Assembly: GCA_022787165.1 (NCBI GenBank)
Contig: JALFVL010000007.1
Location: 62,001-126,000, forward strand
Direction of reading: 5' to 3'
DNA length: 64,000 nucleotides
DNA from: Clostridiales bacterium
GTDB taxonomy: Bacteria; Bacillota; Clostridia; Christensenellales; Aristaeellaceae
Part shown: one piece after another, positions 1,961 to 46,765 of the stretch
How positions within the stretch are numbered: the stretch's first letter is position 1
Layout: each line of letters begins with the position of its first letter
Notes under the pieces: generated by a model
The model's input: only the letters and a program-made list of their open reading frames with translations
Database searches by the model: none
Told to the model about the DNA's origin: nothing
Program-made: the position numbers and the translations under genes

Positions 1961-2112
1961 GCGCGAAGCGAACATGGGGTCAAGGGGCGAAGTCCCTTGG
2001 CAGGTTTGGGCGGCAGCCCAACGTATCCTGAAAAATCAAAGAAAAGGCCGTCTCAGAGCAGAATGCGATTGAAACGGGTTTGATTCGCAAAGAAAAGATT
2101 CAGACACAAATC
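1961..2112 (+). repeat. Family A multi-hairpin element, copy A1
   Basis: Begins directly after the TAA of the methyltransferase gene. It shares with the other copies the GCGAAGCGAA head, a variable hairpin (CAAGGG/CCCTTG arms), the constant block TTTGGGCGGCAGCCCAACG with a GGGC/GCCC stem, and the tail TCAGAGCAGA...CGATTGAAACGGG. The inner stem of hairpin 3 is degenerate in this copy. Sense orientation relative to the upstream gene. Confidence 0.8.
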
Positions 2113-20550: not shown

Positions 20551-21561
20551 ATGCTGCTCAGCGTTGTGATCCCAATCTATCAGGTGGAGGCCTATCTGGA
20601 CGCGTGTCTCTCTCGCGCGGCCCAGCTCCCGCAGGAGGAATGCGAGCTGCTGCTCGTGGATGACTGCGGAACGGACGGCTCCGCGGCGATCGCGCAGCGT
20701 TTTGTCCAGGCGCATGACCATGCGCGGCTGATCCGCCGGGCGCAAAACGGCGGTCTTTCCGCCGCGCGCAACACGGGGCTGGACGCGGCCAGGGGCGACT
20801 ATGTCTACTTTCTGGACAGCGACGACGAGCCCGTGCCGGAGGCGCTGCTGGCGCTGACGCGCGAGGCTGCCCGGGAGGGGCTGGATGTGGCGAAGGGACG
20901 CTTCGTCTTCTTTGACGATGAGACGGGCCGGGAGACGCCCGGGCCCGCGATCACCGCGTCGGATTGCATGAGCGGCGGCGAGCTCTTTGCGTCGCAATGC
21001 CGCGCGGGCGTCTATGAGCCGATGGTCTGGCAATGCGTCTACCGGAGCGCATTCCTGATGGAGCATGGGCTGCGGATGGCGGAGGGCCTGCTCTTTGAGG
21101 ACGAGCTGTTTCAGGCGCCGGCGCTGCTGGCGGCGGCGCGCGCGGCGGCGAGCGAACGCGTGATCCTGCGCTACCGCCAGCGCGCGGGGAGCATCATGAC
21201 CTCGTTCGCCCGAAGCAGCCGGTGGTGCGCAAGCTATCTGGAGGTCTGCCGGCGGCTGGACGCGCTGGGCAGGACGCTGCCTCCCGGGGCGGCGAAGCGG
21301 GCGCTTCAAAGGCGCGTCGGGCAGATCGCCCTGAGCGAGATCAAGAACATCCCGGCCTACGGCCTGCCGCCGGATGTCGCGCGGGAGGCGATGGATTTCG
21401 CGCGCGCGCATCTGCGGGAGCTGTCGGGCTATGCGCTGCGCTCCGGCGCTGCGCTCGTGGCGGCGCAGGGGCTGCTCATGCGCCTCTCGCCCGGGGCCTT
21501 TGTCCGGCTCTACGGCGGAAACCGGCATGCTGCCGGTGGCAATTCCGACAAAACGCCGTAA
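20551..21561 (+). CDS. Glycosyltransferase family 2 (its C-terminus encoded by a family B repeat)
   Basis: A 336-aa GT-A enzyme: MLLSVVIPIYQVEAYLDACL, LLVDDCGTDGS, GGLSAARNTGLDAARGDYVY and FLDSDDEPV (DxD). The ATG follows GGAGGAG. The last 14 codons (from about 21519) lie inside family B copy 1, so the protein ends with repeat-derived residues NRHAAGGNSDKTP and uses a stop codon from the repeat. The original stop was probably lost when the repeat arose or inserted. It likely acts in the same surface-glycan pathway as the divergent genes. Confidence 0.87.
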   Translation: MLLSVVIPIYQVEAYLDACLSRAAQLPQEECELLLVDDCGTDGSAAIAQRFVQAHDHARLIRRAQNGGLSAARNTGLDAARGDYVYFLDSDDEPVPEALLALTREAAREGLDVAKGRFVFFDDETGRETPGPAITASDCMSGGELFASQCRAGVYEPMVWQCVYRSAFLMEHGLRMAEGLLFEDELFQAPALLAAARAAASERVILRYRQRAGSIMTSFARSSRWCASYLEVCRRLDALGRTLPPGAAKRALQRRVGQIALSEIKNIPAYGLPPDVAREAMDFARAHLRELSGYALRSGAALVAAQGLLMRLSPGAFVRLYGGNRHAAGGNSDKTP

Positions 21562-21615
21562 ATCCACCGGCTTTGTGCCCGAGGCCGCTGCCTTGCAGGG
21601 CGGAAGTGTCATAAC
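21519..21615 (+). repeat. Family B element, tandem copy 1
   Basis: About 97 bp: hairpin ACCGGCA-TGC-TGCCGGT, then TTCCGACAAAACGCCGTAAA, TTTGTGCCCGAGGCCGC, TGCCTTGCAGG and CATAAC. Overlaps the 3' end of the glycosyltransferase gene. Confidence 0.9.
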
Positions 21616-21710
21616 AAACCGGCATGCTGCCGGTGGCATCGCCGACAAAGGTCTGTAAATCCCGCCGCTTTGTGCCTGAGGCCGCTGCCTTGCAGGGGGA
21701 ATTTCACAAC
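21616..21710 (+). repeat. Family B element, tandem copy 2
   Basis: 95 bp, head to tail with copies 1 and 3; differs in the central part (CATCGCCGACAAAGGTCTG). Confidence 0.9.
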
Positions 21711-21806
21711 AAACCGGCATGCTGCCGGTGGCAATTCCGACAAAACGCCGTAAATCCACTGGCTCTGTGTCCGAGGCCGCTGCCTTGCAGGGGGGAAGGT
21801 CATAAC
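21711..21806 (+). repeat. Family B element, tandem copy 3
   Basis: 96 bp, nearly identical to copy 1 over its first 60 bp; ends GGTCATAAC before the MATE promoter region. Confidence 0.9.
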
Positions 21807-21897: not shown

Positions 21898-21903
21898 CAT
21901 TCA

Positions 21904-22008
21904 TGTTGGGCGCAGAGCCCGGAACAATCAAATCAAAAGCGTGTTGCCTTGGGCGTAAATCCGGCTTGAGGCAGCGCGCTTTTTTGGTTGCTTGAAGGAG
22001 GATCAGTT
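21904..22008 (+). promoter_or_regulatory. Structured 5' leader of the MATE gene (candidate riboswitch or attenuator)
   Basis: About 105 nt between the expected transcript start and the ATG. It contains a small hairpin GGGC-GCAGA-GCCC (21908-21920), an A-rich linker and a very strong terminator hairpin with T-run (21935-21985) just before the ribosome binding site. This layout is typical of leader RNAs controlled by early termination. I do not recognise the aptamer: it is not an evident guanidine, preQ1 or SAM type. Confidence 0.6.
21935..21985 (+). terminator. Attenuator hairpin in the MATE leader
   Basis: 16-bp stem (21935-21950 with 21968-21983, including three G-U pairs), 17-nt loop, then TTTTTT. 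It lies between the promoter and the gene, so most transcripts should stop here unless the fold is changed. Confidence 0.8.
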
Positions 22009-23424
22009 ATGGTACAAAACAAAGAGAACCACAGCGCCCAGCGCGAGCTGGAGACGCTGCCCGTCGGCAGGCTAATGATGCGCTATTCGCTGCCCTGCAT
22101 CATCTCGCTGCTGGTCGCCGCGCTGTACAACATCGTCGATCAGCTGTTCATTTCCAACGCGTCGTATCTGGGCTCCTACGGCAACGCAGCCAATACGGTC
22201 GTCTTCCCGCTGACGGTCGTTGCGCTGGCGCTGGCCGTGATGATCGGCGACGGCTGCTGCGCGTTCGTCTCCATCAGCCTGGGCGCGGGCCGCAAGGAGG
22301 ACGCGCACAAGAGCATCGGCAGCGCCGTGGTGCTCAGCCTCGCCGTGAGCCTCATCGTGACGGCGGTCTATCTGCTCTTCTCGGATCAGATCGTGACGGC
22401 GTTCGGCGGCCGCGTCAACGAGGAGACGTTCCACCATTCCAGAGAGTATTTCTTCTTTATTACGGTGGGCATCCCGTTCTACATGTTTGGCCAGGCGATG
22501 AACCCGATCATCCGCTCGGACGGCAGCCCGCGCTTTGCGATGGCCTCGACGCTGGCAGGCGCGGCGGTGAACATCGTGCTGGACCCGATCTTCATCTTCG
22601 TGTTCAAGTGGGGCATGATGGGCGCGGCCGTGGCGACGGTGCTGGGCCAGGTGCTCACGGCCGTGCTGGCGGTCTGGTATCTGTGCCACATGAAGGCCGT
22701 GAAGCTGGAGCGCGCAAGCTTTGCGCCGCATTTCAAGCTGGCCAGGCGTTATCTCGCGCTGGGCATGACGAGCTTCCTTTCCCAGATTTCGCTGGTGGCC
22801 GCGATGGCGGCGATCAACAACATGATCCGCACCTACGGCGCACTGGACGCCATCTTCAGCCAGGCGGAATACGCGCAGATCCCGATGGCTGTGGTCGGCA
22901 TCGTCATGAAGTTCTTCCAGATCGTGATCTCCATCGCCGTCGGTTTGGCGGCGGGCTGCATTCCGGTCGTCGGCTACAACGTCGGCGCGAACCGCAGGGA
23001 TCGGGTGCGCGCGCTCTTCACGCGCCTGCTGGCCTGTGAGGCGGCAGTCGGTTTTGTCGCGCTGATGAACGTCGAGCTGCTGCCGAATCAGCTGATCACG
23101 CTCTTCGGCGCGGCGAACGAGAGCATCTACTACACGCAGTTCGCGGTCAAGTCCTTCCGCATCTATCTGTGCATGATGCCGCTGGCGACCGTCAACAAGG
23201 GTACGTTCATCTACCTGCAGTCCGTCGGCCGCGCGCTCGCGTCCACGGCGATCTCCATGATCCGCGAGGTCGTCTTCGGCGTCGGCTTCGCGCTGCTGCT
23301 GCCGGTCTTCTTTGGCCTTGACGGCGTGCTCTACTCGATGCCGGTTTCCGACCTCCTGACGTTTGTCATCGCCGCCGTGGTCATCGCGCAGACCTACAGG
23401 ATGCTCGCCGGAGAGAAGGCGTAA
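22009..23424 (+). CDS. MATE-family multidrug/organic cation exporter
   Basis: A 471-aa membrane protein with about 12 hydrophobic helices in two similar halves. The N-terminal MATE segment PVGRLMMRYSLPCIISLLVA and VDQLFISN are followed by QAMNPIIRSDGSPRFAMAST and, in the second half, GCIPVVGYNVGANRRDRV. Such proteins export drugs or metabolites using Na+ or H+ gradients. I start it at ATG 22009, after AAGGAGGATC. It is preceded by a consensus promoter and an attenuator leader, so expression is probably conditional. A family A element follows the stop. Confidence 0.92.
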   Translation: MVQNKENHSAQRELETLPVGRLMMRYSLPCIISLLVAALYNIVDQLFISNASYLGSYGNAANTVVFPLTVVALALAVMIGDGCCAFVSISLGAGRKEDAHKSIGSAVVLSLAVSLIVTAVYLLFSDQIVTAFGGRVNEETFHHSREYFFFITVGIPFYMFGQAMNPIIRSDGSPRFAMASTLAGAAVNIVLDPIFIFVFKWGMMGAAVATVLGQVLTAVLAVWYLCHMKAVKLERASFAPHFKLARRYLALGMTSFLSQISLVAAMAAINNMIRTYGALDAIFSQAEYAQIPMAVVGIVMKFFQIVISIAVGLAAGCIPVVGYNVGANRRDRVRALFTRLLACEAAVGFVALMNVELLPNQLITLFGAANESIYYTQFAVKSFRIYLCMMPLATVNKGTFIYLQSVGRALASTAISMIREVVFGVGFALLLPVFFGLDGVLYSMPVSDLLTFVIAAVVIAQTYRMLAGEKA

Positions 23425-23452
23425 ACCCGGCTCGCTTCAGCGTGGCTTCCAT

Positions 23453-23600
23453 ACGCGCGAAGCGAAGAAGGGCGTCTGAGGGATGAAATCCCTCAGGCGG
23501 GTTTGGGCGGCAGCCCAACGATTCGATAATCAGGAAAAGCAGTCTCAGAGCAGGCTGCACAGCAGCCTACGATTGAGACGGGTCAGATTGATACAGTGGA
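23453..23600 (+). repeat. Family A multi-hairpin element, copy A2
   Basis: GCGCGAAGCGAAGAAGGG head; hairpin 1 CTGAGGGAT-GAA-ATCCCTCAG (perfect); constant TTTGGGCGGCAGCCCAACG; hairpin 3 with outer GTCTCA/TGAGAC and inner GGCTGC/GCAGCC stems around a GAGCA/TACGA internal loop. Sense to, and just downstream of, the MATE gene. Confidence 0.9.
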
Positions 23601-23620
23601 GTATAAACTGCAAATCAGGG

Positions 23621-23647
23621 GGCCGGTTTTTCCGGCCTTCTTTTTTT
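23621..23647 (+). terminator. Terminator upstream of spmA
   Basis: GGCCGG-TTTTT-CCGGCC followed by TTCTTTTTTT. It closes the MATE transcript and means that spmA cannot start at the upstream ATG 23596. Confidence 0.85.
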
Positions 23648-23682
23648 GCGCCCGGGCGCATACGCTTGCCGGGGTGATGGGG

Positions 23683-24273
23683 ATGAACGCGGTCTTCTGC
23701 GGCATGCTGCTTATCGGGCTGCTTCGCGCGGCGGCGACGGGGCAGGCGGAGGCGGCGCAGCAGGCGCTGCTTGGCGGCGCGGGCGAGGCGGTGACGCTCT
23801 GCCTGTCGCTGGCCGGGGCGTATGCGTTCTTCGGCGGGCTGCTGGAGGTGCTGCGCGAGAGCGGCGCTGCGCAGGCGCTGGCCGGGGCGATGGAGCGGCC
23901 GCTGCGGCGGCTGTTTCCGTTTGCGCCGGGGGAGGAGCGCGCGCTGGGCGACATCTGCATGAACCTCGCCGCGAACATGCTGGGCATGGGCGGCGCTGCC
24001 ACGCCGGCAGGTCTCTCGGCGATGAAGACGATGGCAGCAGGCGGGGAGGGCCGGGCGAGCGACGCGATGATCCTCTTCCTCGTCGTCAACACGTCGAGCG
24101 TACAGCTGCTGCCCACGACGATGATCGCGCTGCGCGCGCAGGCGGGCGCGGCGCATCCGGCGGACATCATCCTGCCGACGCTGCTGGCGACGTCGGTTTC
24201 GACGGCCTGCGGCGTCATGCTGTGCCGGTTGTTCGCCGGGCGGAGAGGGGGAGCGCGCGCATGTCCTCGCTGA
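23683..24273 (+). CDS. spmA: Spore maturation protein A
   Basis: A 196-aa membrane protein with the nucleoside-recognition (Gate) fold of SpmA: GDICMNLAANMLGMGGAATP, AMKTM and VVNTSSVQLLPTTMIALRAQ are characteristic. With SpmB it is needed for spore-core dehydration and heat resistance in Bacillus; the mechanism is unclear. I start it at ATG 23683, after GGGGTGAT; the frame runs further upstream but through a terminator. It overlaps spmB by 13 bases. It is evidence that the organism has a sporulation programme. Confidence 0.9.
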   Translation: MNAVFCGMLLIGLLRAAATGQAEAAQQALLGGAGEAVTLCLSLAGAYAFFGGLLEVLRESGAAQALAGAMERPLRRLFPFAPGEERALGDICMNLAANMLGMGGAATPAGLSAMKTMAAGGEGRASDAMILFLVVNTSSVQLLPTTMIALRAQAGAAHPADIILPTLLATSVSTACGVMLCRLFAGRRGGARACPR

Positions 24274-24758
24274 TTCTGCCCGCGCTGCTCGTCGGGGCCC
24301 TGCTGGCGGCGCTATGCAGGCATGTCGATGTCTACACGGCGTTTGTGCGCGGGGCGAAGGAGGGGCTTTTGACGCTTGCGAGCATGGCGCCGTATCTGGC
24401 GGCGATCCTGACGGTGACAGCGCTCTGGCGGCAGACCGGGCTGACGGCGGCGCTCACACGGGCGCTGGCGCCGCTGCTCACGCGCCTCGGGCTGCCGGCG
24501 GAGGTCATCGGCGTCGTGCTGCTGCGCCCACTGTCGGCTTCCGCCGCGCTGGCGGCGGCCAGAGAGGCGCTGACGCTCGTCGGCGCGGACAGCAGGGCAG
24601 GGCGGATGGTCTGCGTGATCTGCGGGGCGAGCGAGACGGTCTTCTTTACGGGCGCGCTGTATCTGGGCGCGGCGGGTGTGAGGCGCGGGCGCTACGCGGT
24701 GCCGGTGGCGATGCTGGCCTACGCGGCGGGCGTGCTCGCGGCGGCGGCGGTTGCATAA
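24261..24758 (+). CDS. spmB: Spore maturation protein B
   Basis: A 165-aa membrane protein of the same Gate fold: VDVYTAFVRGAKEGLLTLAS, LRPLSASAALAA and ICGASETVFFTGALYLGAAG match SpmB. The ATG lies inside the end of spmA, so translation is coupled. The TAA stop is shared with the first bases of a family B element (TAAAACCGGCATG). Confidence 0.9.
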   Translation: MSSLILPALLVGALLAALCRHVDVYTAFVRGAKEGLLTLASMAPYLAAILTVTALWRQTGLTAALTRALAPLLTRLGLPAEVIGVVLLRPLSASAALAAAREALTLVGADSRAGRMVCVICGASETVFFTGALYLGAAGVRRGRYAVPVAMLAYAAGVLAAAAVA

Positions 24759-24852
24759 AACCGGCATGCTGCCGGCGGCATCTCCGACAAGGGTTTGCAA
24801 GCTCCGCTGCTTTGTGCCCGAGGCCGAAGCTTTGCGGATGGATTTCCATAAC
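24758..24852 (+). repeat. Family B element, single copy after spmB
   Basis: Hairpin ACCGGCA-TGC-TGCCGGC, then TCTCCGACAAGGGTTTGC, CTTTGTGCCCGAGGCCG and CCATAAC. Begins at the spmB stop codon. Confidence 0.88.
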
Positions 24853-24854
24853 GA

Positions 24855-24888
24855 AAAAAGGTCAGACCGGAAAAAGTCTGACCTTTTT
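24855..24888. terminator. Bidirectional terminator between spmB and oppF
   Basis: Perfect 13-bp stem AAAAAGGTCAGAC/GTCTGACCTTTTT with an 8-nt loop, giving T-runs in both directions between convergent units. Confidence 0.95.
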
Positions 24889-24900
24889 GGGTGCGCTGAT

Positions 24901-25048
24901 TGGCGGGATGAACCCGTCTCAATCGTAGGCTGCTGCGCAGCCTGCTCTGAGACTTCGTTATTGATCGATTGGGGGACGATAGGGCTGCCGCCCTATGACC
25001 TGCTTGGGGATTTCATCCCCAACCCCCTTCTTCGCTTCGCGCGGGTGA
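24901..25048 (-). repeat. Family A multi-hairpin element, copy A5
   Basis: The only copy on the minus strand, 23 bp after the stop of the minus-strand oppF gene and in its sense orientation. Hairpin 1 is TTGGGGAT-GAA-ATCCCCAA; the second block is AGGGCGGCAGCCCT; hairpin 3 has GTCTCA/TGAGAC and GGCTGC/GCAGCC stems. Confidence 0.9.
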
Positions 25049-25071
25049 AAGGGATTTGGAGAGAATCGGGA

Positions 25072-26082
25072 TCAATCCCGGAGCGTAGCGAGCTTCTCGC
25101 GATAGCCATCGAGCTCCGGCCGGTTGCCGTAGACGAAATGGCCCGGCTCAAACTCCACGAACTCGGGCAGCTCGGCCGAATAATTGTGTACCGACGGGTC
25201 GTAGACGAGCAGCTTCTTGCTGCGCTCGAGCTCCGGGTTGGGCAGGGGCACGGCGGAGAGCAGCGCGCGGGTATAGGGATGCAGCGGGTGGCGGTAGAGC
25301 GTTTCCGTGTCGGCCAGCTCGACGATCTTGCCCAAATGGACGACGGCGATGCGGTCGCAGATGAAGCGCATGACGGAGAGGTCGTGCGAGATGAACAGAT
25401 AGGTCAGCCTGCGCTCGCGCTGGAGCTTGGAGAGCAGGTTGAGCACCTGCGCGCGGATGGAGACATCCAGAGCGGAGATCGGCTCGTCGGCGATGATGAA
25501 CTCCGGCTGCATGATCAGCGCGCGGGCGATGCCGATGCGCTGGCGCTGGCCGCCGGAGAACTCGTGCGGGAAGCGGCTGGAAAACTCCGGCAGCAGGCCG
25601 ACATCCTCGAGCGCGCGGGAGACGGCCTCATGGATGTATTCCTTGCTGGCGCGCGTGCCCTTGCTGTACAGGCCCTCGGCGACGATGTATTCGACCTTGG
25701 CGCGCTCATTGAGCGAGGCCATCGGGTCCTGGAAGATCATCTGAATCTTGCGGGTCATCTCCCGGTCGAGCGCGCGGGGAATGCTGCCGCTGATGCGCTG
25801 GCCGAGGTAGAGGATTTCGCCGGAGGAGACGGGCTGGATGCGCATGATCGCGCGGCCGATGGTCGTCTTGCCGGAGCCGCTCTCGCCGACAACGCCGAAG
25901 GTTTCGCCGCGGCGGATGTCGAAGCTGACACCGCGCACGGCCTGAAACGCCTTGCGGCCACGGCCGAAGGTCACGCCGAGATTGCGGACGCTGACAAGCG
26001 TTTCCTTCATGGAGGCGTCAAGCGTCTCGCTCATCGCGGGGCGTAGCGTATCGCTGAGCGCTTCGCTGCGGGAATCAGTCAT
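25072..26082 (-). CDS. oppF: Oligopeptide ABC transporter ATPase
   Basis: A 336-aa ATPase: Walker A GESGSGKTT, FSGGQRQRIGIARAL signature, Walker B IIADEPISALD, switch LFISHDLSV, and the C-terminal oligo_HPY-type segment HPLHPYTRALLSAVP. The N-terminus is unusually extended (about 25 residues before the first strand). The ATG at 26082 overlaps the oppD stop by 8 bases and follows GGGAGGG. Last gene of oppABCDF. Family members import peptides and, in some cases, other solutes. Confidence 0.93.
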   Translation of the reverse strand: MTDSRSEALSDTLRPAMSETLDASMKETLVSVRNLGVTFGRGRKAFQAVRGVSFDIRRGETFGVVGESGSGKTTIGRAIMRIQPVSSGEILYLGQRISGSIPRALDREMTRKIQMIFQDPMASLNERAKVEYIVAEGLYSKGTRASKEYIHEAVSRALEDVGLLPEFSSRFPHEFSGGQRQRIGIARALIMQPEFIIADEPISALDVSIRAQVLNLLSKLQRERRLTYLFISHDLSVMRFICDRIAVVHLGKIVELADTETLYRHPLHPYTRALLSAVPLPNPELERSKKLLVYDPSVHNYSAELPEFVEFEPGHFVYGNRPELDGYREKLATLRD

Positions 26083-37838: not shown

Positions 37839-39194
37839 ATGGAACTGACACCCAAACAGGTCGTGCGCGAGCTCGACCGTTATATCATCGGCCAGGACGA
37901 GGCCAAGCGCGCGGTCGCCGTGGCGCTGCGCAACCGCTACCGCCGCAGCCGCCTGCCGGAGGAGATCCGCGAGGAGATCGTCCCCAAGAACATCCTGATG
38001 GTCGGCCCGACCGGCGTGGGCAAGACGGAGATCGCGCGCCGGCTGGCGAAGCTGGTGGACGCGCCGTTTGTCAAGGTCGAGGCGACGAAATTCACCGAGG
38101 TCGGCTATGTCGGCCGCGACGTGGAGAGCATCATCCGCGACCTCGTCGAGGCGAGCGTGCGCATCTGCAAGGAGCAGGCCAGCCAAAAGGTCAAGGCGCG
38201 GGCGACCGTGCTGGCGGAGGAGCGCATCGTCGATTTGATCCTGCATCCGAACCGCAAGCCGGCCAACCCGATCGACGTGCTGCTGGGGAACAAGCCCAAG
38301 GAGCCGGCGGTGCCCGAGGGCGAGCGCCAGCAGATCGCCCGGCGCGCGCAGGAGCTGCGCGGACAGCTCATGCGCGGCGAGCTGGAGGACGTGGAGGTCG
38401 AGATCGAGGTCGAGGATGCGCCCAAGGACGTCGAGATCAACGGCGCGAGCGTCAACATCGGCTCCGTGATGGGCGACATGCTGCCCAAGAAGACGAAGAT
38501 GCGCCGCATGAAGGTCAGCGACGCGCGCCGCGTGCTCGTCGCCGAGGAGGAGAGCAAGCTCATCGACATGGACGCCGTGACCGAGGAGGCCATTCGCCGC
38601 GCGGAGCAGGATGGCATCGTCTTCATCGACGAGATCGACAAGGTCGCCGGGCGCGCCGCCAACGGCCCGGATGTCAGCAGAGAGGGCGTGCAGCGGGACA
38701 TTCTGCCCATCGTCGAGGGCAGCACGGTCAACACGAAATACGGCGTGGTCAAAACGGACTACATGCTCTTTATCGCGGCGGGCGCCTTCCACGTCGCCAA
38801 GGTGACGGACCTGATTCCCGAGCTGCAGGGCCGCTTTCCTGTGCGCGTGAACCTCAAGCCGCTGACGCGGGAGGACTTCAAGGCCATCCTCAGCAAGACG
38901 GACAACGCGCTCACGCGCCAGTACGAGGCGCTGCTCGCCGTCGACCATGTGCACCTGCACTTTGAGGAATCGGCGCTTGACGCGCTGGCCGAGGCGGCCG
39001 AGCAGGCCAACGAGAGCGGCGAGGACATCGGCGCGCGCCGGCTGCACACGCTCTTTGAGCAGATGCTCGAGGATATCTCCTTCAACGCGGGCGGCGACAT
39101 GCCGGACGTGGACGTCGTCATCAACGGCGAATACGTGCGTGAGCACCTGGGCAGCGACGCCAAAAAGGCCGATATGAAGCGGTATATCCTGTAA
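37839..39194 (+). CDS. hslU: ATP-dependent protease HslVU, ATPase subunit (ClpY)
   Basis: A 451-aa AAA+ unfoldase: Walker A GPTGVGKTE (about 56-64), the intermediate I-domain (about 110-235), Walker B GIVFIDEIDKVAGR and a C-terminus ending MKRYIL, the docking tail inserted into HslV. Length is standard. No codY follows, unlike in Bacillus; a family A element and then a glycosyltransferase gene come next. Confidence 0.97.
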   Translation: MELTPKQVVRELDRYIIGQDEAKRAVAVALRNRYRRSRLPEEIREEIVPKNILMVGPTGVGKTEIARRLAKLVDAPFVKVEATKFTEVGYVGRDVESIIRDLVEASVRICKEQASQKVKARATVLAEERIVDLILHPNRKPANPIDVLLGNKPKEPAVPEGERQQIARRAQELRGQLMRGELEDVEVEIEVEDAPKDVEINGASVNIGSVMGDMLPKKTKMRRMKVSDARRVLVAEEESKLIDMDAVTEEAIRRAEQDGIVFIDEIDKVAGRAANGPDVSREGVQRDILPIVEGSTVNTKYGVVKTDYMLFIAAGAFHVAKVTDLIPELQGRFPVRVNLKPLTREDFKAILSKTDNALTRQYEALLAVDHVHLHFEESALDALAEAAEQANESGEDIGARRLHTLFEQMLEDISFNAGGDMPDVDVVINGEYVREHLGSDAKKADMKRYIL

Positions 39195-39222
39195 GACGGA
39201 TTCCATTCTGAAATGCTTTCAC

Positions 39223-39392
39223 AGGCGCGAAGCGCAGAAGGGAGTCTGAGGGATGAAGTCCCTCAGGCAGGTTTGGGCGGCAGCCCAACGTTTCCCATAA
39301 AAAATCAGAAAAAAGCATAGTTTCAGAGCAGACCGCGCAGCGGTCTACGATTGAAACGGGTTTGATTCGCAAAAGAAGGATTCAGCAGAAGA
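39223..39392 (+). repeat. Family A multi-hairpin element, copy A3
   Basis: Hairpin 1 CTGAGGGA-TGAAG-TCCCTCAG; constant TTTGGGCGGCAGCCCAACG; hairpin 3 with outer GTTTCA/TGAAAC and inner GACCGC/GCGGTC stems. Compared with A2, both stems of hairpin 3 change on both sides. Sense to, and downstream of, hslU. Confidence 0.9.
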
Positions 39393-39428
39393 ACATCGGA
39401 CACCGCGCGAGGGGAGCGTGAAACAACC

Positions 39429-40301
39429 GTGCAGGCGATGATCATCACGGCGTACAGGGACTACGAGGGCCTCTCCCGGATGCTGGGCGCGCTCAGCACC
39501 CGCGCGCTGTGCTTCGTGCACGTGGACCGCAAGAGCGATATCACGCAGGAGCAGACCGCGCGGCTCGACGCGATGGACAACGTGCGCGCGATTCGCCGCT
39601 ACAGGGTCAACTGGGGCAGCGTGTATCACCTGCACGCGCTGCTCGACCTCTGCCGCATGGCGCTAGAGGATCCGCGCGTGACGCATCTGCACCTGATCTC
39701 CGCGCAGGATTTCCCCACGGTTTCAGCGGATGCGTTTGAGCGCTTCTTTGACGGCGATACGCGCATCCACATGCAGAGCCTGCGCACGGCGGACTATCCC
39801 GAGCTCGCCCACCGCTATGAGCATTTTCACTTCATGCACTGGCTCAACTACCGCGACATGTCTGAGCGCGCGCAGAACTGGGTCGGGCGCATCGACCGCT
39901 GGCAGGACGCGCTGCATGTCAGGCGCAAACTCAGCCTGCCGCGCAAGGGCCTCGTCTGGCTGAGCCTGCCCAGGGAGGCCGCGGAGCACGCCGCTCTCGC
40001 GCCGCAGAACAGGCGCCTGCTGCACAGGCTCCGGTATACCTACATTCCCGAGGAATTCTACTTCCAGAACGCCTTTGCCGGCACCCCGTGGGAGGAGAAG
40101 ATCACGGGCGGCGCGCTGCGCTTTTCCATCTGGGACGAGCCGCAGCGCGGGACGCCGGCGCTGCTGGACGAGCGCGACCTGCCTGCGATTGACGCATCGG
40201 GCTGCATGTTTGCGCGCAAGGTCGAGGCGGGCACAGCGCTGTATGAGGCGTTGGAGAGGCGGTGGCTGGGAGATGCCGCCAGCGAACAGAAACCCCATTG
40301 A
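39429..40301 (+). CDS. GT14-like (core-2/I-branching type) glycosyltransferase
   Basis: A 290-aa protein with the layout of the Branch family (PF02485): MIITAYRDYEGLSRMLGAL, LCFVHVDRKSD, NWGSVYHLHALLDLCRMALE, HLHLISAQDFP and YIPEEFYFQNAF. Bacterial members are thought to add GlcNAc or xylose branches to surface glycans. It starts at GTG 39429; an ATG nine bases later is an alternative. The TGA stop lies inside the -35 box of the next promoter. It is far from the glycosyltransferase cluster at 18-21 kb. Confidence 0.8.
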   Translation: MQAMIITAYRDYEGLSRMLGALSTRALCFVHVDRKSDITQEQTARLDAMDNVRAIRRYRVNWGSVYHLHALLDLCRMALEDPRVTHLHLISAQDFPTVSADAFERFFDGDTRIHMQSLRTADYPELAHRYEHFHFMHWLNYRDMSERAQNWVGRIDRWQDALHVRRKLSLPRKGLVWLSLPREAAEHAALAPQNRRLLHRLRYTYIPEEFYFQNAFAGTPWEEKITGGALRFSIWDEPQRGTPALLDERDLPAIDASGCMFARKVEAGTALYEALERRWLGDAASEQKPH

Positions 40302-45918: not shown

Positions 45919-46395
45919 ATGAGACGAAGGGACAGGGAGATCACAAATCTTGAAGAGATCGGGGCCATCATGGGCGAATGCCTGAACGCGACGATAGCCT
46001 TTGGCGGCGACGGCCCGTATGCCGTGCCGATGAGCTTTGGCTTTGAGCGGAAGGATGGGCAATTCTGCCTGTATCTGCATTGCGCGGGGGAGGGCGAGAA
46101 GCTCAGGCGGATGGAGCAGGACCCGCGCGCGGCGTTTTCCATGTACACACGCGAGACGCTTCGCCCAAGCGACAACCCTGCCGCCTGTACGATGGACTTT
46201 CTGAGCGTCTGCGGCAGCGGCGTGCTTGCGCGGCTTGAGGGCGAGGAGAAGCGCCACGGGCTCGACGTGCTGATGGCGCACTATCAGCCGGGGAAAGTGT
46301 TCGTCTATCCGGAGGCGGCGCTTGAGGCCGTGACCGTGCTGCGCCTTGACGTGCAGGCGATCAGCGGGAAGCGGCATGGCATGCCTGCCGCCTGA
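45919..46395 (+). CDS. Pyridoxamine 5'-phosphate oxidase-family flavoprotein (NimA-like)
   Basis: A 158-aa split-beta-barrel protein: MRRRDREITNLEEIGAIM, AVPMSFGFE, LYLHCAGEGEKLRRMEQDP (FMN-phosphate region), CTMDFLSVCGSGVLARLE and a C-terminal ISGKRHG. This is the pattern of NimA-type FMN-binding proteins (PF12900). The ATG follows GGAGG by eight bases. Often annotated as nitroimidazole-resistance or pyridoxamine-oxidase-related, but the real substrate is unknown. Probably co-transcribed with rsmH (17-bp gap). Confidence 0.85.
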   Translation: MRRRDREITNLEEIGAIMGECLNATIAFGGDGPYAVPMSFGFERKDGQFCLYLHCAGEGEKLRRMEQDPRAAFSMYTRETLRPSDNPAACTMDFLSVCGSGVLARLEGEEKRHGLDVLMAHYQPGKVFVYPEAALEAVTVLRLDVQAISGKRHGMPAA

Positions 46396-46404
46396 TGCCG
46401 ATTT

Positions 46405-46500
46405 ACTCTGTAAGTTCCTCTGCAAGGCTCCGGTCTCGGGCACAAAGCAACCGGACAACCATCACTTCGTCGGAAATGCAACCGGCATCATGCCGGTTTG
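46405..46500 (-). repeat. Family B element, single minus-strand copy
   Basis: On the minus strand, ACCGGCA-TGA-TGCCGGT, TTCCGACGAAGTG, CTTTGTGCCCGAGACCGG and CCTTGCAGAGG. Ten bp after the flavoprotein stop, but here antisense to that gene. Confidence 0.85.
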
Positions 46501-46519: not shown

Positions 46520-46704
46520 CACGCGAAGTGAAGAAGGGTCAAGGGGCTGAGCCCCTTGCGGGGTCTGGGGCGGCGCCCCAGGCGGGTTTGGGCGGCAGCC
46601 CAACGGTTCCAATCAGCTCAGAAAAAGCAGTTTCAGAGCAGACCGCGCAGCGGCCTGCGATTGAAACGGGTTGGATTCTCAAAGCGGGAATTCAGACACA
46701 AAAC
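46520..46704 (+). repeat. Family A multi-hairpin element, copy A4 (with extra hairpin)
   Basis: Hairpin 1 CAAGGGGC-TGA-GCCCCTTG; then an extra hairpin CTGGGGC-GGC-GCCCCAG found only here; constant TTTGGGCGGCAGCCCAACG; hairpin 3 with GTTTCA/TGAAAC and GACCGC/GCGGCC stems. Sense to the upstream flavoprotein gene. Confidence 0.9.
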
Positions 46705-46765
46705 AGCATCATCGATGGAAAAGGGTATTTTCGCGCTGCGAAGGTACCCTTTTGTCTGCCGGATA

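Follow-up and report, generated by a model that had tools for sequence, protein, structure and literature searches.

The window, which is a stretch of 64 kb analysed as a whole, contains five copies of a dispersed multi-hairpin repeat, termed family A here. The features around the copy at 23455-23584 and the other four copies are listed in Table 1. All five copies reported in the initial annotation are detected with the covariance model R1 at 105-143 bits each, and an alignment of the five confirms the head, hairpins 1 to 3 and the GAGCA/TACGA internal loop, with changes on both sides of the stems. Some of its other descriptions hold only in part. A two-stem hairpin 3 is general, but is not present in the 1961 copy, which is without the inner stem. 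The block described as near-constant is not kept in the 24911 copy, which has ATAGGGCGGCAGCCCTAT instead. Four copies lie shortly after a stop codon of the same sense (0, 30, 29 and 30 nt), but the 46521 copy lies 619 nt beyond the nearest stop called with confidence. The element extends past the core by approximately 31 nt on the 5' side and 37 nt on the 3' side, and the right end of the 46521 copy has an inverted-repeat match with two mismatches at 46698-46711 (-). A terminator scan of 21900-25100 gives a single match, 23617-23641, as compared with an average of 3.1 in shuffles, so that the count is not above chance. Another dispersed and partly tandem repeat family, family B, which contains CCGGCATGCTGCCGG, is located in the window at 21519-21798, 24758-24845 and 46382-46500 (-).

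Table 1. Features of family A and adjoining sequences in the window
Feature	Position	Strand	Basis and remarks
Left arm of element, degenerate	23425..23454	+	30 nt from TAA stop (23422-23424) to head; register from full-length JALFHA copies
Family-A core, copy under study	23455..23584	+	Covariance model R1, 143.2 bits
Hairpin 1, CTGAGGGAT/ATCCCTCAG	23476..23496	+	Sequence; helix with two-sided changes
Hairpin 2, TTGGGC/GCCCAA	23503..23518	+	Sequence; one pair found as TA, AT, GC and CG
Hairpin 3, two stems, GAGCA/TACGA internal loop, A-rich stretch just 5'	23542..23579	+	Sequence; loop-anchored count, A-runs
Terminator-like hairpin with T-run, outside element; probably the gene's own terminator	23617..23641	+	Terminator scan
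Family-A core after gene 25072-26082 (-), oppF-like according to the initial annotation	24911..25042	-	131.2 bits; 29 nt after stop
Family-A core immediately past TAA; hairpin 3 has lost its inner stem	1961..2080	+	105.1 bits; site empty in most relatives
Family-A core, 30 nt past stop of gene 37839-39194	39225..39362	+	142.4 bits; head at site in 1 of 27 relatives
Family-A core with extra hairpin, preceded by family-B repeat	46521..46672	+	107.3 bits; nearest confident stop 619 nt away

Family A is a real repeat family. With the 39223-39392 copy as the query, a DNA search of the genome that contains the window (G000; 2,487,313 bases, 90% complete, in 42 contigs) yields at least 41 matches when 40 of 90 candidates are scored. 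The covariance model R1, built from 30 copies of this genome, gives at least 97 matches at E<=0.01 in the same 2.49 Mb; this count is a lower bound, with 150 of 1616 candidates scored, and the weakest of the 97 may be chance matches. The best 83 of these at least 97 matches (>=35 bits) constitute the working set. R1 also matches 16 of 24 other genomes of the same genus, with 1 to at least about 80 matches per genome. Among 16 genomes from other families, one (G031) is matched. Of 151 genomes sampled evenly across the order, three have matches, namely the own genome, G031 and one genome of another genus of the family; weak copies may be missed in these surveys because filters are stricter and few candidates are scored per genome. 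The G031 match is ruled out as family A, because it is a row of simple hairpins where it was read. The match in the other genus scores 54 bits and consists, by eye, of hairpin 1 and hairpin 2 with no head. A pattern scan of named genomes, which may omit close relatives of the own genome, gives at least 99 stretches, and the matches listed come from six MAGs, all of uncultured Clostridia, including one from a water-deer rectum and one of Candidatus Ventricola gallistercoris. Plasmids and phages searched for family A give no match and no viral contig contains the exact pattern, and carriage by phage or plasmid is rejected on these grounds. Family A is practically confined to its Clostridia genus, with hardly any match outside it. 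The initial annotation could name no family with this structure, and Rfam 15 detects only a tRNA in the window at gathering scores and nothing at 39150-39430 up to E=5. Searches of the open-licence literature list no paper with a title on such a family, and those with motif strings give an unrelated result only.

The ends of the element are readable in the MAG JALFHA (SUG673; G041), because many of its family-A copies are nearly identical. The intact element has the order TNA, TACTGTCTTGCACTTAAAAGCTCGAATATAA, core, TGATTCTGCAAAGCTAGATTTTAGCCGCAAAATAGTA, TNA, with terminal inverted repeats TACTGTYTTGC at both ends. The counts of the end motif TNATACTRTYYTGC are 152 in G041, 13 in G018, 2 in G011, 1 in G000 and 0 in G042. 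Complete elements, 204-213 bp in length, are found at eight places, none of them in the own genome, where the ends are degenerate and no intact pair is found. Thirteen family-A elements have intact ends; 12 of them are flanked by TNA left and right, and 7 of these 12 carry the same TNA at both flanks (3.0 expected, p=0.014). Of the intact copies, 5 of 6 outside the burst of G041 have identical TNA, as compared with 2 of 6 in the burst, which is about the level of chance; the short-read contigs of G041 often end inside repeats, so that flanks joined to burst copies may be misassembled and the non-identical TNA are possibly due to chimeric contigs. Many G041 contigs end approximately 125-143 bases from the burst end motif, probably because the repeat breaks short-read assembly. 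One burst copy (L197) lies inside an array of family-B units, and a TTA duplication is visible by comparison with the uninterrupted form that adjoins it. The longest complete open reading frame in six elements of 146-312 bp encodes 24-66 amino acid residues, and no transposase gene is present. Family A has therefore the features of a MITE: it is short and without a transposase gene, has terminal inverted repeats and a target duplication, and shows high copy number together with presence or absence at given sites. A 160-bp sister MITE with the ends TACTAATTCGC is observed in L131, L162, L168, L189, L216 and L228, and its two TNA are identical in six of six cases.

Limited searches of incomplete MAGs with PF13358 (25 genomes), PF01609 (5 genomes) and PF13586 (9 genomes) give few matches and no mobiliser of family A, and the ends of two transposase examples examined differ from those of family A. 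IS630 is rejected as the mobiliser, because PF13358 (IS630 family) is absent from the own genome and the copy in G011 has other ends. The latter is a two-ORF PF13358 IS630-type element (L228 1394-2674), which contains the 160-bp sister MITE. The PF01609 gene of G041 is rejected as well, because its inverted repeats differ.

The interior of family A consists of hairpins that vary as modules. Hairpin 3 is replaceable by GTCAGGGAGCGAAGCGTTACCTGAC, which also often follows an A-rich stretch, and the loop of hairpin 1 contains a nested structured insert of approximately 100 nt in some copies and species. An insert of this kind with conserved CGTCGGGAATCGCAAGGAGCGC...GCGCGACTATGCGAGTTCCCCGG is observed in L216/L155, in L176 and in the own copy C2:70878-71056. 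Family B (GGCATGCTGCCGG) lies within the linker of family A in L176, and in L140 it follows an end of the same kind. In alignments fitted to the covariance model, 98.4% of cells pair in 87 distinct copies of relatives, with two-sided changes at 20 of 29 pairs (0 of 500 shuffles as high), and 97.8% of cells pair in 59 copies of the own genome, with two-sided changes at 15 of 29 pairs. The covariation described in the initial annotation is thus strong in the larger alignments. In a loop-anchored count of 138 occurrences, which is not fitted to the model, the inner stem of hairpin 3 has 22 distinct arm pairs and pairs in 94.7%, as compared with a mean of 80.6% and a maximum of 87.0% for shuffled pairing. 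The outer stem of hairpin 3, with seven types, pairs in 91.4%, which is within the range of shuffles (mean 89.8%, maximum 97.1%). The own copies fold better than shuffles, with a mean z-score of -4.41 for the sense strand and -4.57 for the antisense strand (40 of 59 copies). The minimum free energy of the core is lower in sense in 125 of 147 copies. For the part from the head to hairpin 2 the sense strand has the lower value in 102 of 102 cases, and for hairpin 3 the antisense strand has it in 101 of 114. Choice of a strand from folding energy is nevertheless rejected, because the z-scores are equal on both strands.

These results indicate that the pairing of the stems is kept, and either an RNA or a DNA process may lie behind it. 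In hairpin DNA, gene conversion or template switching can alter both arms at once. Covariation is therefore not proof of an RNA, since the sense and antisense folds are equally significant and DNA processes can change both arms. It is possible, if less likely than not, that the paired changes arise from gene conversion or template switching within palindromes and are silent on RNA function. Equal z-scores on the two strands speak for such processes, as do whole hairpins that differ at orthologous sites while the flanks stay unchanged (L215/L168, L189/L132). These processes leave the orientation bias of old copies unexplained, however, and would add to the reading of family A as a mobile element rather than replace it. 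At the orthologous site of L189 7343-7478 and L132 7549-7685, the two copies differ in hairpin 2 by a clean exchange of T-A for C-G, and their hairpins 1 are of different paired types throughout; these differences may represent compensation, conversion or template switching.

Alternatively, sense copies may be of active use: as has been suggested for REP and ERIC, their hairpins could shield or process the upstream mRNA at its 3' end, and this benefit would maintain the sense orientation. This reading is somewhat doubtful. The position at a fixed distance of approximately 30 nt after the stop codon, and the conservation of unpaired loop letters among family-A copies along with that of paired stems, are consistent with such a use. 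G-U pairs exceed A-C pairs by 61:33 (p=0.005) when a constant G-U column is left out, although one inherited hairpin-1 subtype supplies much of this excess, and hairpin 3 shows no strand preference in its G-U tolerance (10:8). ERIC has an effect on mRNA that depends on orientation (PMC2229807). Poor conservation of the sites across species and the equality of the z-scores on both strands argue against a useful RNA. Of the two possibilities in the initial annotation, a structured RNA in 3' untranslated regions or a mobile palindromic unit at gene ends, the mobile unit fits better, and the RNA is not proven by covariation.

The orientation of family A relative to its neighbours depends on the age of the copies. 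Genes are called by a frame-wise hexamer model seeded on six window genes. Of 71 own copies with at least 60 bits, 5 overlap a called gene, 3 have no called flank and 63 are classified as tandem sense (36), convergent (24), tandem antisense (3) and divergent (0). The corresponding 122 copies of relatives include 5 that overlap a gene and 48 without a flank; the 69 classified, which include five young G041 copies, all sense, are tandem sense (33), convergent (29), tandem antisense (6) and divergent (1). Thus 60 of 63 own copies and 62 of 69 copies of relatives follow a stop codon in sense, whereas 3 and 7, respectively, are not sense to the preceding gene, and the position described as always sense applies to most old copies only. 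Only tandem and divergent places are informative, because between convergent genes a copy is always in the sense of one of them; sense exceeds antisense at tandem places by 36 to 3 in the own genome (p=4e-8) and by 33 to 6 in relatives (p=1e-5). Antisense copies number 5 of 75 when own copies with at least 35 bits are counted. The older G041 copies are 11 sense and 1 antisense (4 of 16 left unoriented), and the CAMENN copies are 14 sense and 5 antisense (4 of 23 left unoriented). One antisense head lies in a tightly packed operon (L375).

For young copies, the outer flanks of 40 left and 40 right burst ends among the G041 ends listed were examined. The 3' end of the nearest gene faces the element at 29 of 40 left flanks (29:11) and at 30 of 40 right flanks, where a 5' end faces it at 9 and no gene is present at 1 (30:9). 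Young copies thus prefer gene 3' ends (59:20, p=1e-5), but their left and right ends show no orientation bias (p=0.80). In contrast, the ratio for old own copies is 60:3 at left ends and 27:36 at right ends (p=7e-11), and left ends differ between old and young copies (p=0.002). Equal use of both orientations, named in the initial annotation as evidence against its view, therefore holds for young copies but not for old ones. This result suggests that the orientation bias probably arises after insertion, although the old and young sets are mostly from different species, so that a different insertion habit could mimic selection. Within G041 itself the old copies are biased (11:1), but their number is small.

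Such a habit, in which the machinery of the older lineages inserted the element at stop codons in one orientation, is improbable. The distance from stop to head in the own genome clusters at 28-31 nt, which indicates that the left end begins at about the stop codon, and the left end indeed often begins right after it, as expected from targeting. However, the burst copies, which have the same type of ends, are unbiased, and the target pattern TNA is the same on either strand and therefore gives no direction.

Comparison of orthologous sites indicates that they are filled or empty depending on the species. The end of gene 37839-39194 is readable in 27 of 28 relatives, and a family-A head is present in one of them. 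For gene 1091-1960, 25 relatives are matched; a head is present in sense in 5 of them and in antisense in 1, and in 15 of the other 19 the conserved motif of the next gene is located within 62 nt of the stop codon. The two window sites are thus empty in most relatives. Of 13 readable own orthologues of element-bearing genes of relatives, 5 have the element, as compared with 16 of 71 background genes (p=0.30), and both values are raised because the own stretches were chosen around elements. Downstream of the 37839-39194 orthologue in L357, L359, L360 and L361, GGTGGTACCACG-type stretches are followed by a hairpin and a T-run; we take these stretches, found in species without family A at that site, to resemble T-box leaders. 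A regulatory RNA that does not move and is inherited vertically at fixed genes is highly improbable and is largely refuted, because, although close species share some positions (L220/L186, L189/L132, L215/L168), the sites are poorly conserved between species, with heads mostly absent, and burst copies with inverted ends are nearly identical. The inverted ends, the TNA flanks, the sites filled or empty between species and the recent burst together identify family A, with high confidence, as a non-autonomous MITE-like transposable element of 204-213 bp when intact.

Hairpin 3 provides a candidate for the cause of the orientation bias. A makes up 56% of the 14 nt that precede hairpin 3, and a run of at least four A is present there in 108 of 138 occurrences, whereas a run of at least four T follows hairpin 3 in 6 of 138. 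Read backwards, hairpin 3 is a hairpin followed, after approximately 3 nt, by a U-tract. By a TransTerm-like tail score, the antisense side scores higher in 165 of 167 copies, and a score of at least 3.0 is reached by 70 of 167 antisense tails, 1 of 167 sense tails and 3.4% of random 15-mers; group means on the antisense side are 2.66-3.09, as compared with 1.88 for random sequences. A simple terminator scan of two stretches does not detect the reversed hairpin 3, which has an internal loop and a U-tract set back from the stem by 3 nt.

The best explanation overall, with a probability of approximately 0.6, is that family A is a mobile MITE-like family of which sense copies are kept and reversed copies are lost. 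The element would be moved by a transposase supplied in trans. Its young copies are located in both orientations, mostly adjoining gene 3' ends; the TGA and TAA stop codons themselves match TNA. Its interior consists of exchangeable hairpins, of which pairing is kept by two-sided changes. Sorting of the orientation after insertion, as a part of this explanation, is fairly likely. Sense copies may be tolerated, and are possibly useful, as a transcribed non-terminating structure of the 3' untranslated region. Reversed copies would be lost. The most likely cause is that inversion turns the A-rich stretch into a U-tract that follows a hairpin and may act as a weak one-way terminator, although this step is proposed only tentatively. 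Within an operon, only reversed copies would then have a polar effect, which would explain why tandem antisense copies are few and divergent copies almost nonexistent. It is unlikely, but conceivable, that family A further represents genus-wide modular mobile 3'-UTR cassettes that function as one-way transcription valves, with swapped hairpin modules, insertion in either direction and an orientation sorted by selection. Such valves would be transparent in sense, which would let them lie inside packed operons, and would terminate antisense transcription, shielding genes from opposing transcription.

Family A resembles several known elements described in PMC2229807 and PMC6382973. ERIC/IRU of enterobacteria (127 bp) is MITE-like, is transcribed with its neighbours, folds, and has an orientation-dependent effect on mRNA (PMC2229807). 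Compared by description, ERIC is placed among TA-ended elements, whereas family A is from Clostridia and has TNA flanks, a length of approximately 204-213 bp and a modular multi-hairpin interior. YPAL/RU-2 of Yersinia (approximately 168 bp) is palindromic, intergenic and recently mobile with target duplications (PMC2229807), but its inverted repeats are internal and its duplications are 3 to 26 bp, whereas the inverted repeats of family A are terminal and its duplication is the 3-bp TNA. NEMIS/Correia and RUP are non-autonomous, of high copy number and with terminal inverted repeats; the transcripts of NEMIS form folds and have been suggested as targets of RNase III, and RUP has TA-containing targets with IS630-Spn1 as the proposed mobiliser (PMC2229807), whereas no partner is found for family A. 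MITEAba12 of Acinetobacter (113 bp) has inverted repeats, 9-bp target duplications, ISAba12 as the mobiliser and no orientation preference (PMC6382973). It shares inverted repeats and target duplications with family A and resembles its young copies, but not its old copies, in orientation. Family A does not appear among the stem-loop families in passages of PMC2267715. As far as these descriptions go, family A is of the same general kind as ERIC, YPAL, NEMIS, RUP and MITEAba12.

It is an old question whether small transposons located at the ends of bacterial genes are simply tolerated or come to form a part of the transcript. Family A, a structured repeat family that is named here and gives no match in Rfam 15, provides a before-and-after comparison within one genus, because young copies of the same modular element are unbiased and old copies are strongly oriented. 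This comparison makes selection on inserted 3'-UTR hairpins measurable.
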